In this document: positions 2,996 through 6,304 of the stretch, piece after piece
Layout of the letters: each line of letters opens with the position of its first letter
Numbering within the stretch: position 1 is the stretch's first letter
Assembly: GCA_016550415.1 (NCBI GenBank)
Contig: JABXGU010000657.1
Location: 1 to 6,711 of the forward strand
Reading direction: 5' to 3'
From: an archaeon
GTDB taxonomy: Archaea; Asgardarchaeota; Hermodarchaeia; Hermodarchaeales; Hermodarchaeaceae
DNA: 6,711 nucleotides
Notes under the pieces: generated by a model
Seen by the model: only the letters and a program-made list of their open reading frames with translations
Databases searched by the model: none
What the model was told of the DNA's origin: nothing
Program-made: the position numbers and the translations under genes

Positions 2996-3790
2996 TTACA
3001 ATGATTGGCAGAACTCCACAATCGTACTCACAAGTGCTTCAGGTTGTTCCAGCTGAATAGAATGCCCAGTATCTTCAATTACTTTCAACACAGCTTTGGG
3101 AATGTGAGTAGCAAAATATTCACCAACACGACAAGGGAAAATATTGTCTTGCGAGCATTGGATAATAAGGGTTGGTGCCTGAATTTCTCCTAGCCGGGCT
3201 TCAATATTGAAGCGTAATGCCGCACTAGCTGCATATCCGTGACTAATCTGATTTGCCTTTACCTGTTCTTCGTCAGCCAATAGAAGTTCTATCATTCCAG
3301 GTGTAGAACGGATTTTTTCAGGGTTGAAGAATTTTGCTTCTAGTTGTTTCTCGAATCTTTCCTTTGGAGGCAGTCCAAATCCAGCTTGACTCTCTACAAG
3401 CCACGCCTCGGCAACTTCAACACCTACCTTTGGACCAGTGCAAATGAGTATAAGAGCCTTGAGTCGTTTTGGAGCATCAAGTGCCATTTGTTGAGCAACA
3501 AACCCTCCAAGACTGTGTCCAGCCACAACGCATTTTTCAACCTTCAACTCATCTAAAAGACCCACAAGATCCTGTGCAAACATTTCAGGCGTGTAGTGGA
3601 TGTTTGGTTTGTCTGATCTACCATGACCACGCAACTCTGGAAGGATTAGGTGAAAATGCTTCCGCAAATTTGGACGTATGTACTCCCACATTGGAAGAAA
3701 GCTTGAGAAGCCATGGATAAGTAGCAGGTTTTCTCCTTGTCCATCAATTTCATAATATATCTTATATTCTCCAACTTTGGCATATGGCAT
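2996..3790 (-). CDS. Alpha/beta-fold hydrolase
   Basis: A soluble single-domain serine hydrolase of 264 residues, the normal size for the family. Numbered from the ATG at 3790, the oxyanion-hole motif is L-L-I-H-G-F at 23-28. The strand R-G-H-G-R-S-D (54-60) is typical, the nucleophile elbow G-H-S-L-G-G is at 91-96 with Ser93, the acid is Asp215 in Q-D-N-I-F-P, and the base is His243 in D-T-G-H-S. The triad is complete, so the enzyme should be active on an ester, lactone, amide or C-C bond; substrate cannot be inferred from sequence. I chose the ATG at 3790, preceded by GGTGA five bases away, because family members commonly begin M-P-Y-x-K-V. A GTG at 3797-3799 with AAGGG nine bases upstream would add three residues and is also possible. 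It is the first gene of a minus-strand pair with the URO-D-like gene and is transcribed divergently from the zinc-finger genes. Confidence 0.88.
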   Translation of the reverse strand: MPYAKVGEYKIYYEIDGQGENLLLIHGFSSFLPMWEYIRPNLRKHFHLILPELRGHGRSDKPNIHYTPEMFAQDLVGLLDELKVEKCVVAGHSLGGFVAQQMALDAPKRLKALILICTGPKVGVEVAEAWLVESQAGFGLPPKERFEKQLEAKFFNPEKIRSTPGMIELLLADEEQVKANQISHGYAASAALRFNIEARLGEIQAPTLIIQCSQDNIFPCRVGEYFATHIPKAVLKVIEDTGHSIQLEQPEALVSTIVEFCQSL

Positions 3791-3799
3791 CGATGTCAC

Positions 3800-3994: not shown

Positions 3995-4573
3995 TTGCTA
4001 TTGGGGGCCCTTGCACTGGACAACCTGCTATTAGCATCATATATACTAATTTTCCCATTCCTTTTGATTATCATTATCTTGTTGATAGTATGTATTATTT
4101 ATCTGGCAGTTCGTGAAGCTACAGAGTCTTCAGAATCTCACGCATATGTGCGAGCTAGTCCAGGAGATGAATGGACTCCCGTTGAACCTATCAGCAAACA
4201 ACGACCATCGCAGTCCTCCAAGCATCAAGTGGATGTGATTGTATGTACTTGCGGGAAATGGAATGAACCAAGTCAGCATATCTGTTGGAATTGCAGCGCC
4301 TCCCTTAGCCCCTCCACAAAATTTCTACAAACCTTTACCTTCGAAACAGCACCACGATGCGCAGTATGCACCTTTTGGGTATACCCAGGTGAGCGGGTCA
4401 TACTTTGCCCTGCTTGCCAAGCACAAGGACACCGTGCCCACATGCTTGAATATCTTAAAGCCAAAGGAGCCTGCCCAGTTTGTAAACGGCGATTTACCGC
4501 GGACCAATTTCTTACAGCAATACCAATTATTGGACCCTCTCGAGAATTATCTCATATTCAAGAGGCGAAGTAG
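3995..4573 (+). CDS. Membrane-anchored zinc-ribbon plus RING/PHD-like zinc-finger protein (copy 1)
   Basis: A 192-residue protein I cannot assign to a named gene. Residues 11-38 form one strongly hydrophobic helix (I/L-rich) that probably anchors it in the membrane. Next come a polar Ser/Pro linker (41-76) and then two zinc modules. The first has Cys84, Cys86, Cys97 and Cys100 with Asn90; apart from the C-x-C start this fits both the archaeal zinc ribbon and the RanBP2/NZF finger pattern C-x3-N-x6-C-x2-C. The second has Cys122, Cys125, Cys138, Cys141, His146, His149, Cys160 and Cys163, eight ligands in the spacing of a RING/PHD-like cross-brace. A short tail follows. Such domains bind proteins and, in RING ligases, recruit ubiquitin E2 enzymes, but activity here is inference. 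The next gene is a close paralogue beginning directly after this stop codon (TAG). The start is uncertain: TTG at 3995 or 4001, with an in-frame stop at 3965-3967. The zinc domains probably face the cytoplasm, given R40 after the helix. Confidence 0.78.
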   Translation: MLLGALALDNLLLASYILIFPFLLIIIILLIVCIIYLAVREATESSESHAYVRASPGDEWTPVEPISKQRPSQSSKHQVDVIVCTCGKWNEPSQHICWNCSASLSPSTKFLQTFTFETAPRCAVCTFWVYPGERVILCPACQAQGHRAHMLEYLKAKGACPVCKRRFTADQFLTAIPIIGPSRELSHIQEAK

Positions 4574-5017
4574 GTGCTTGAATGGCTCATCATTGACATT
4601 GTACTTCTCCTAGTGTGTCTTGCTTGTGCAGGAGCTTGTGACAAATCAAGAGAACAGTCTAGGAGACCACATGGTTCACCTGCTTCTCCAAGGTCAGCTC
4701 CTTCATATACAAAACCAAGGGTTAAACAGCAAGTTCAACGACCCTGGCAACCATCTCAACATCAAATAGATGTGATTGTATGTACTTGTGGTAAATGGAA
4801 CCAACCGGATCAAACCAGTTGCTGGAGCTGTGGTGAAGCCTTTACTTCCAGTGACGCTCCGAAGACCTTTACCTTTGAAACAGCTGAACGTTGTGCAGTA
4901 TGTAGCTTTTGGGTATACCCAGGTGAACAAGTTACACTTTGCCCTGCTTGCAAAGCACAGGGACACCGAGTTCATATGCTAGAATATTTCAAAGCCAAAG
5001 GAGCCTGCCCAGTGTGC
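4223..5017 (+). repeat. Tandem paralogous segments encoding the zinc-finger modules
   Basis: The segment at 4223-4483 (copy 1, residues 77-163) and that at 4760-5017 (copy 2, residues 63-148) encode nearly the same module. By eye, about 60 of 87 aligned residues are identical with a single one-residue gap, in the linker between the two zinc modules. DNA similarity is also high and includes an exact 23-base match (4457-4479 and 4991-5013). The N-terminal helices and linkers outside these segments do not align. This indicates a tandem duplication with conservation limited to the zinc-binding part, or replacement of the ends after duplication. Confidence 0.85.
4562..4565 (+). promoter_or_regulatory. 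Ribosome binding site of second zinc-finger gene, inside the first gene
   Basis: GAGG lies eight bases before the GTG at 4574 and inside the last codons of the upstream gene. It supports separate initiation at this GTG and suggests translational coupling, since ribosomes ending at the TAG (4571-4573) would be on top of the start codon. Confidence 0.6.
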
Positions 5018-5071
5018 ACTCAAAGGATTAGTTCATCCCATTTACTTCATGCAAAAAGTCTCTCCGCTTAA
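4574..5071 (+). CDS. Membrane-anchored zinc-ribbon plus RING/PHD-like zinc-finger protein (copy 2)
   Basis: A 165-residue paralogue of the preceding protein, also unnamed. Residues 4-21 form a shorter hydrophobic helix that is Cys-containing (Cys15, Cys18, Cys22). It is followed by a basic, Ser/Pro-rich linker (24-62), which by the positive-inside rule puts the C-terminus in the cytoplasm. Zinc module one uses Cys70, Cys72, Cys83 and Cys86 with Asn76. Module two uses Cys107, Cys110, Cys123, Cys126, His131, His134, Cys145 and Cys148. All twelve ligands of copy 1 are kept, as are F-W-V-Y-P-G-E (112-118) and H-M-L-E-Y (134-138) between them, so both copies should fold and bind zinc. The start is a GTG directly after the upstream TAG and in the same frame, with GAGG eight bases before it. 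Two interacting subunits or a pair with different partners are both plausible; ubiquitin-ligase-like function is only an analogy. Confidence 0.8.
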   Translation: MLEWLIIDIVLLLVCLACAGACDKSREQSRRPHGSPASPRSAPSYTKPRVKQQVQRPWQPSQHQIDVIVCTCGKWNQPDQTSCWSCGEAFTSSDAPKTFTFETAERCAVCSFWVYPGEQVTLCPACKAQGHRVHMLEYFKAKGACPVCTQRISSSHLLHAKSLSA

Positions 5072-5119: not shown

Positions 5120-6304
5120 CTAGATGAAATAGGTGCGTGGCAATCGGGTTATCCTATGTGCACCTCTTTTTGTGATAATAGCATCATCTTCGATGCGTAC
5201 ACCACCAACACGCTTGTAATAAAGACCGGGTTCTATGGCTACAACTGCTCCTTCACGAAGAAGAGAGGGAACGGGAGAAAGACGGGGAAGTTCGTGAACA
5301 TCAAGCCCAATACCATGTCCAAGTCCGTGAAGCATACCTTCTTTAATTTCAGGAGTACGATTTGCAGATGGATACCCATCATGTTCTAGAGAATCAGACA
5401 TAGCATCCAATAATTCCTCTGTGGTACCTCCTACCTGAATTGCATCTAATACTGCATCAAGGGATGATTCCACTGCTTCGAACATCTTCTGCAATTTGGC
5501 TGATACCTTACCACGCACAATTGTTCGTGTGATATCAGCGTGAAATCGTTCTTCAAGCCGTCGTGGGTAGATATCCACTATAATAGGTTCATTGGCTCGA
5601 AGTTTATCCTTTCGTTGTCCTAGATAATGGAAATCGGCACTACGTGGGCCACCAGCAACAATTGATTCCTGACTATTCTCTGAATCATTTTCAACAAGTG
5701 AATGCTCGATAATGCGTTTAACTCGCCCGACAGTAAGTGGAGCGCCATCATGTAAAAGCACATTTTTGGGTCCCACAGTAGCATTCTGAATAACTTCGAT
5801 TACACGCTCAAATGTTGCTTCAGTTGCACGACTCGCCTTATTTATCGCCCGGAGTTCCTCTGCACTCTTAGTTTCACGGGCTTGGAGAAACAAGTCATGA
5901 ACAGGCTTTGTCTTCACATCATAATGGTTCAACTCAGCAACTACAACTGAATCAATATCACGTGGAATACCAACCACACCGCCAGAAGGAAGCAAATTCT
6001 CAACAATACTGATTATAATGCGCTTTTCTAGCTCCTCCCGTGATAAGCGGTTACGAATTGCCTGCTCCCATATCGGACTCAAACTATGAAATTCCTGCAT
6101 CAGAGAATGTTTCTTTGCCCGTTCACATACTAAGTCTGTGGCTGCTAATACTGGAGACTCCCCCGCAGACTTTACATAATAGGCTTGATCCACTGTGAGA
6201 AATTTTGTAACATAATATAGATTGGGGTTATGAATGCTAAGACCTTCAAGGAAGAGTGCATCTACTCCAAATTCTGCCATTAAGTTATCTAGGTCATCAA
6301 GCAA
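5120..6304 (-). CDS. M24 family metallopeptidase (Xaa-Pro aminopeptidase/prolidase-like)
   Basis: A 394-residue cytosolic enzyme with the two-domain layout of aminopeptidase P and prolidase: a creatinase-like N-terminal domain (about 1-140) and a pita-bread catalytic domain (about 145-394). The five dinuclear metal ligands are all visible: Asp244 (V-D-I-Y-P-R), Asp257 (A-D-I-T-R-T), His330 (G-L-G-H-G-I-G), Glu358 (A-I-E-P-G-L-Y) and Glu372 (R-I-E-D-D). Substrate-site histidines are seen at 226 (F-H-Y-L-G) and 337 (D-V-H-E-L-P). It probably removes N-terminal residues ahead of proline or splits X-Pro dipeptides during peptide recycling; which of these cannot be told from sequence. The D-I-Y-P-R form of the first metal motif resembles the archaeal D-I-F-P-R subgroup. 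The start is TTG at 6302-6304 (in-frame stop at 6317-6319), giving L-D-D-L-D-N-L-M as family members typically begin. The next ATG, at 6280, would trim eight residues and has no ribosome site. It is divergent from the MFS-like gene and convergent with the zinc-finger pair. Confidence 0.92.
   Translation of the reverse strand: MLDDLDNLMAEFGVDALFLEGLSIHNPNLYYVTKFLTVDQAYYVKSAGESPVLAATDLVCERAKKHSLMQEFHSLSPIWEQAIRNRLSREELEKRIIISIVENLLPSGGVVGIPRDIDSVVVAELNHYDVKTKPVHDLFLQARETKSAEELRAINKASRATEATFERVIEVIQNATVGPKNVLLHDGAPLTVGRVKRIIEHSLVENDSENSQESIVAGGPRSADFHYLGQRKDKLRANEPIIVDIYPRRLEERFHADITRTIVRGKVSAKLQKMFEAVESSLDAVLDAIQVGGTTEELLDAMSDSLEHDGYPSANRTPEIKEGMLHGLGHGIGLDVHELPRLSPVPSLLREGAVVAIEPGLYYKRVGGVRIEDDAIITKRGAHRITRLPRTYFI

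Follow-up and report, generated by a model that had tools for sequence, protein, structure and literature searches.

The window analyzed here is a stretch of 6,711 nucleotides (contig JABXGU010000657.1, assembly GCA_016550415.1) from an archaeon of the Hermodarchaeaceae. It contains two adjacent paralogous genes, gene 1 and gene 2, whose products each combine an N-terminal hydrophobic helix, a zinc ribbon and a RING-like domain. We propose, with a probability of about 55%, that these products are membrane-tethered, cytosol-facing RING proteins of the Hermodarchaeota-type ubiquitin system, which dock an E2 enzyme and probably act in pairs. An E3-like role had been suggested in an earlier note made from the letters of this DNA. 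That idea gains real support from the ubiquitin-cluster genes present in the genomes that carry the family, and from the homology detected by profile comparison with the RING of that cluster. The pair can be regarded as candidate membrane ubiquitin ligases or scaffolds, with the following features, all on the + strand:

3995..4573, gene 1, membrane-anchored zinc ribbon-RING protein of 192 amino acids (aa); open reading frame (ORF) with TTG start
4043..4099, predicted transmembrane helix of gene 1, residues 17-35; best hydrophobic window
4244..4294, zinc ribbon of gene 1, C84-x-C86-x3-N90-x6-C97-x2-C100; alignment
4358..4483, RING cross-brace of gene 1, C122 to C163, C4-H2-C2; alignment and predicted model
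4574..5071, gene 2, paralogue of gene 1, 165 aa; ORF with GTG start right after the TAG of gene 1
4583..4639, predicted transmembrane helix of gene 2, residues 4-22; best hydrophobic window
4781..4831, zinc ribbon of gene 2, C70 to C86; alignment
4892..5017, RING cross-brace of gene 2, C107 to C148, with Thr at the linchpin position; homology

The RING domain and its relation to the ubiquitin cluster

The search with one sequence gave 27 proteins and the search with the alignment gave 36, among 5.8 billion and both including the two window proteins. The counts below refer to an alignment of 36 rows, made up of the two window proteins and 34 homologues. P0001 and P0025, the database copies of the window proteins, were left out of counts and tree, and the first modules of fused proteins fall outside the ligand pattern, so they are absent from both as well. 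At an expectation value (E) of 1e-25 or lower the family was present in 7 of the 227 genomes of the phylum, five of which match Hermodarchaeota-type records, and these seven related genomes (G001-G005, G070 and G071) stand in for the source genome.

All twelve zinc ligands that the earlier note had read in the two proteins are indeed present, and eleven of them are invariant over the aligned rows. The exception is the sixth ligand of the eight-ligand domain (H149 in protein 1), which is His in 32 rows and Glu in four. Single-module copies in G005, G070 and G071 (L050:866-1351, L051:7778-8272 and L052:7659-8048, all on the - strand) have this ligand changed to Glu and an extra His just after the fifth. 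The ligand order, C4-H2-C2, differs from the textbook C3HC4 and C3H2C3. In the predicted model of protein 1 the domain adopts the two-zinc cross-brace fold that is characteristic of RING E3s, as had been anticipated, and not the two separate zinc ribbons that would have spoken against it. This model matches RNF165 and RNF4 in fold, and the best sequence match in the PDB is the E3 RING of RNF24 (4.3e-6). These and other eukaryotic E3s of the RING-H2 class have C3H2C3 ligands, in contrast to the C4H2C2 of the window RINGs, which are candidate ligases only. In Pfam neither protein exceeds any curated cut-off: Prok-RING_1 (PF14446) is matched at E<=0.05 by 34 of the 36 rows (best 4.4e-7), whereas each window protein scores 16.4 bits, below the cut-off of 29.1. 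As an alternative to the RING, a double zinc ribbon was considered and set aside, since the Pfam DZR matches are weak (27/36 rows) and both the model and the kinship to the cluster RING favour a cross-brace.

The family profile also finds, in all seven genomes, a gene for a small RING protein (81-131 aa as called). It is a separate gene in each of them, and the window family is encoded away from the ubiquitin-E2-E1 cluster. This RING, ubiquitin with a Gly-Gly end, E2 and E1 lie on one contig in G001, G002, G003 (where E1 is truncated as the contig stops), G005, G070 and G071, and in G004 the four genes are split over two contigs. Pfam confirmed ubiquitin, UQ_con and ThiF on the G002 copies, and those of the other genomes were named by BLAST to these. 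The JAB domain (PF01398, Rpn11 superfamily) was found in 7/7 genomes with a model that is unspecific, as it also matched 2 of 14 control genomes. A search for such genes had been proposed earlier, together with the warning that homologues occurring mainly in genomes devoid of a ubiquitin-like system would contradict the idea; all seven family-bearing genomes carry ubiquitin, E1, E2 and JAB genes. The absence of a ubiquitin, E1 or E2 gene from the window also stands, with no match among the eight window ORFs scanned.

To compare both RINGs we selected 19 cluster-type RINGs, 18 of them with an E2 no more than about 1 kb away on their contig (that of G004 lies at a contig end; those of G081 and G082 are on the strand opposite to E2). 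The ligand order of the cluster RING is the same as in the window proteins, and so are the loop lengths in 17 of the 19 and in all 36 family rows. Alignment of the two profiles with hhalign gave a probability of 98.8%, an E of 4e-17 and a score of 98.4. In 60 shuffles with the Cys/His columns left in place, the score averaged 19.2 and never exceeded 35.9. One of these shuffles reached a probability of 79.6, so the probability alone is unsafe and it is the gap in score that counts. A score so far above the ligand-preserving shuffles shows homology beyond the shared zinc ligands, and in this way the RING relatedness suspected before is borne out at the level of profiles. Proteins of 431-441 aa with a terminal RING near the cluster type were seen in other Asgard genomes (L084, L085, L086, L088, L090, L093, L094, L096 and L097).

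The cluster RING corresponds to the small RING finger protein (srfp), the E3 encoded in the ubiquitin operon of archaea, which was tested in Caldiarchaeum subterraneum (PMC5654768). With the Hermodarchaeota-type copies of srfp the window family shares ligand order, spacing, a hydrophobic residue before Cys2, an aromatic residue at the W58 position and the C-P-x-C motif. It differs by an added membrane helix, linker and zinc ribbon, by Tyr/Phe in place of Trp, by a linchpin that is Lys or non-basic and never Arg, and by genes placed outside the ubiquitin cluster.

In the Caldiarchaeum RING, changes of I30, W58 and R69 impaired ubiquitylation, and the linchpin after ligand 8 is said to be Lys/Arg in all E3-RINGs (both in PMC5654768). 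We mapped these three residues onto the family by position. The I30 position, before the second Cys, is Val in 36/36 rows, the W58 position is Tyr or Phe in 36/36 (Trp in none), and Pro follows ligand 7 in 35/36. Hence the hydrophobic, aromatic and proline E2-contact positions, of the I30/W58 type considered in that source, are kept by the family. In gene 1 they are V124, Y153 and P161, with K164 at the linchpin position.

Membrane helix and zinc ribbon

The single N-terminal helix per protein proposed earlier agrees with the hydrophobicity profiles. The best 19-residue Kyte-Doolittle window reaches 3.69 in protein 1 and 2.58 in protein 2, and no window above 1.6 was found downstream of the N-terminal segment in either protein. 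The predicted model of protein 1 has a helix at 2-44, and a polar linker separates helix and zinc ribbon in both proteins. Within 15 residues on each side of the helix, protein 1 has no Lys/Arg before and one after, plus three acidic residues after, and protein 2 has none before and four after; Lys/Arg are absent before the helix in 32/36 family rows. By the positive-inside rule, which orients a helix from such charges, this pattern suggests that the zinc domains face the cytosol. An N-out/C-in orientation may thus be assumed for both proteins, weakly in the case of gene 1.

The first finger was described in the earlier note as fitting a pattern common to archaeal zinc ribbons and to ubiquitin-binding RanBP2/NZF fingers. 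The shared C-x3-N-x6-C-x2-C pattern holds, and the rest of the likeness does not. NZF fingers that bind ubiquitin have a Thr-Phe pair after Cys2, while in the family this pair is GK in 33 rows, GR in two and GS in one, and is Thr-Phe in none of the 36. In addition, the spacing between Cys1 and Cys2 is one residue in 30 rows, including both window proteins (C-x1-C-x3-N-x6-C-x2-C), and two in the other six (C-x2-C-x3-N-x6-C-x2-C). At E<=5, zf-RanBP was also absent from the Pfam matches of both window proteins. Judged by its sequence, the finger is a generic zinc ribbon and not an NZF.

The two genes as a pair

Both ORFs were located where the earlier note had placed them, stop-to-start, and translational coupling between them is probable. 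The true start of gene 1 is uncertain, as the database version P0001 begins two codons later. Between the two modules (94 codons) the nonsynonymous divergence (dN) is 0.19 and the synonymous divergence (dS) 1.37 by NG86; by YN00 dS is 2.07, near saturation. The resulting dN/dS of about 0.14 indicates purifying selection. In the RING tree (90 rows, 64 columns, used for family grouping only) the window paralogues are not sisters, gene 1 grouping with P0002 (support 99/90), and this speaks against a duplication within the strain itself.

Furthermore, the number of family genes varies at the locus: one in G001-G004, two in the window, three, carrying five modules between them, in both G005 and G070, and two before the contig end in G071. 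The tandem pair is thus part of a local expansion. Fused double-module proteins of 283-292 aa occur at the same locus in three genomes, which suggests that the modules work in pairs. From the tandem arrangement and these natural fusions, a heteromer of both products may be indirectly inferred.

Proposed function and alternatives

Each protein would be anchored by its N-terminal helix, and the C4-H2-C2 cross-brace, judging from the mapped positions, would dock a charged E2 by way of the Val that precedes the second Cys, the aromatic residue four positions past ligand 6 and the Pro that follows ligand 7. The zinc ribbon may hold a partner or a membrane-near substrate. The products would pair, gene 1 with its basic linchpin possibly being the more active member and gene 2 a support, and at the cell membrane they would bring about ubiquitylation or the recruitment of E2.

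Several observations weigh against this proposal. The position of R69, the linchpin, is Lys in only 8/36 rows (among them gene 1), non-basic in 28/36 (Thr in gene 2) and never Arg, so that full ligase competence appears weakened. Arg or Lys stands two residues beyond this position in 30/36 rows; the cluster-type RINGs have Trp at the W58 position in 19/19 and Arg/Lys at the linchpin in 13/19, with 6/19 lacking it. The hydrophobicity scan shows no helix in P0034 and P0035 and a weak helix in P0027 and P0036, and these are the same four rows in which the sixth RING ligand is not His. The co-occurrence with E2 was rejected as proof, since 167 of the 227 genomes have an E2 and 7/7 is therefore unremarkable. 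A ubiquitin-binding NZF finger was likewise discarded. As Val and Tyr/Phe are kept and the linchpin varies, the docking face seems retained and the activating residue relaxed, and we infer that E2 is docked at the membrane and that its activation is weak or depends on a partner.

The main rival, which we hold to be possible though on the unlikely side, is a non-catalytic ribbon-RING scaffold: the domains would mediate dimerisation and build up a membrane complex, and E2 docking would be lost or vestigial. In GATOR2/SEA and IFT-A, zinc finger-RING modules at the C-terminus serve in dimerisation and complex assembly. They have a ribbon followed by a RING, as in the window proteins, and GATOR2 and IFT-A modules are among the top Foldseek rows for the predicted model (E>0.001), one IFT-A chain superposing with a root-mean-square deviation (rmsd) of 2.7 over 64 residues. 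However, no Foldseek match reached E<=0.001, and the rmsd of 10-14 in long alignments suggests that ribbon and RING may be arranged differently; the window proteins, moreover, are standalone and membrane-anchored. The best PDB sequence match being an E3 RING, and the E2-contact positions being kept in single-module rows, also speak against a pure scaffold. A zinc module that has left the ubiquitin pathway for another ligand at the membrane, such as a lipid, a metal, a nucleic acid or a protein associated with the adjacent hydrolase or peptidase, seems improbable to us. It would fit the conserved synteny with an alpha/beta hydrolase (6/7) and an M24 peptidase (7/7), the generic DZR matches of the ribbon region in 27/36 rows and the loss of the sixth RING ligand in 4/36; yet the flanking genes are on the opposite strand, so a shared transcript is not expected, and the conserved E2-facing positions would be left unexplained. 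Finally, nothing was found to suggest that the Cys/His codons are arranged by chance or that the assembly is at fault, and the invariant ligands, the dN/dS between the copies and the recurrence of the locus in seven genomes leave this explanation refuted, with practically no probability.

The locus and its family

Two syntenic genes outside the module flank it:

2996..3799, - strand, left neighbour, alpha/beta hydrolase
5120..6304, - strand, right neighbour, M24 metallopeptidase

Beyond these, the window encodes a permease of the CitMHS/ArsB type, a protein resembling URO-D/MtaA and, as a weak match (E 0.014), the beginning of an MFS-like gene. The neighbours are 48-68% identical to the genes at the same locus of Hermodarchaeota-type genomes, which supports an Asgard source. 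In the seventh genome the contig ends where the hydrolase would lie. Further out, three genomes (G003, G004 and G070) have the permease, and one of them, G070, has the URO-D-like gene as well.

The relatives with organism names are all Asgard (Promethearchaeota, Hodarchaeota and Hermodarchaeota archaea). An apparent relative in Natronomonas (L008) was dismissed, as the nearby ORF shares little beyond a short CAVC motif and represents a chance match. A viral or phage origin was also rejected: 13 viral-contig stretches fit the protein 1 pattern and none encodes a relative, and protein 2 had no match among phage records. In the RING tree the family forms one group (99/95), adjoining other membrane ribbon-RINGs of the same genomes and lying outside the cluster RINGs, although the split that sets the cluster RINGs apart is weak (24/92); we take the family as a separate lineage-specific branch. 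Among the papers listed, none on this family was recognised by title or abstract start, and it may have been noted before.

Other RING-like genes were seen in these searches. At L007:4413-7272 two adjacent genes, of 471 and 479 aa, have RING-like matches at their ends, the second combining leucine-rich repeats with its RING-like match (PF13639, 9.2e-6, just below the cut-off); they are possible substrate-binding E3-like proteins. Large proteins at L033:52-1758, L034:34-1725 and L031:3-1118 (start cut) have a repeat-rich N-terminal part, a C-terminal ribbon-RING match and, by eye, one hydrophobic segment, and are possible membrane RINGs with an outside domain.

Wider meaning

In G002, a member of the Hermodarchaeota, L056:3319-10745 carries VPS28 (2.6e-13) beside the RING-ubiquitin-E2-E1 cluster, together with an E2-like protein with a weak match to the Vps23 core and an MIT-AAA Vps4-like protein; the C-terminal end of the cluster E1 (L056:3322-4404, - strand) has a weak ubiquitin-like match (PF00240, E 3e-4, below the cut-off). 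A passage of PMC10936438 reports many ESCRT families in other Asgard groups and that Hermodarchaeia 'have none', with which the VPS28 and Vps4-like genes of G002 seem at odds.

In PMC5654768 the E3 of archaea is the small RING protein encoded in the ubiquitin operon. A more far-reaching view, which we consider doubtful and offer as speculation, is that the window proteins belong to a lineage-specific family of membrane RINGs that arose in Hermodarchaeota-type Asgard archaea. These would work as obligate pairs in which labour is divided (one partner having a basic linchpin and the other none, sometimes both fused in a single chain) and would direct the cell's own ubiquitin cascade to the membrane. 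Their eukaryotic counterparts would be the zinc finger-RING modules through which membrane-coat and signalling complexes dimerise. The proposal of membrane RINGs that dock E2 is directly testable, since the cognate E1, E2 and ubiquitin genes have been identified here. If it is true, a membrane-anchored RING family in operon-bearing genomes would suggest that location-specific ubiquitylation can arise in archaea, and it may offer a possible membrane starting point for the link between ubiquitin and ESCRT in Asgard archaea.
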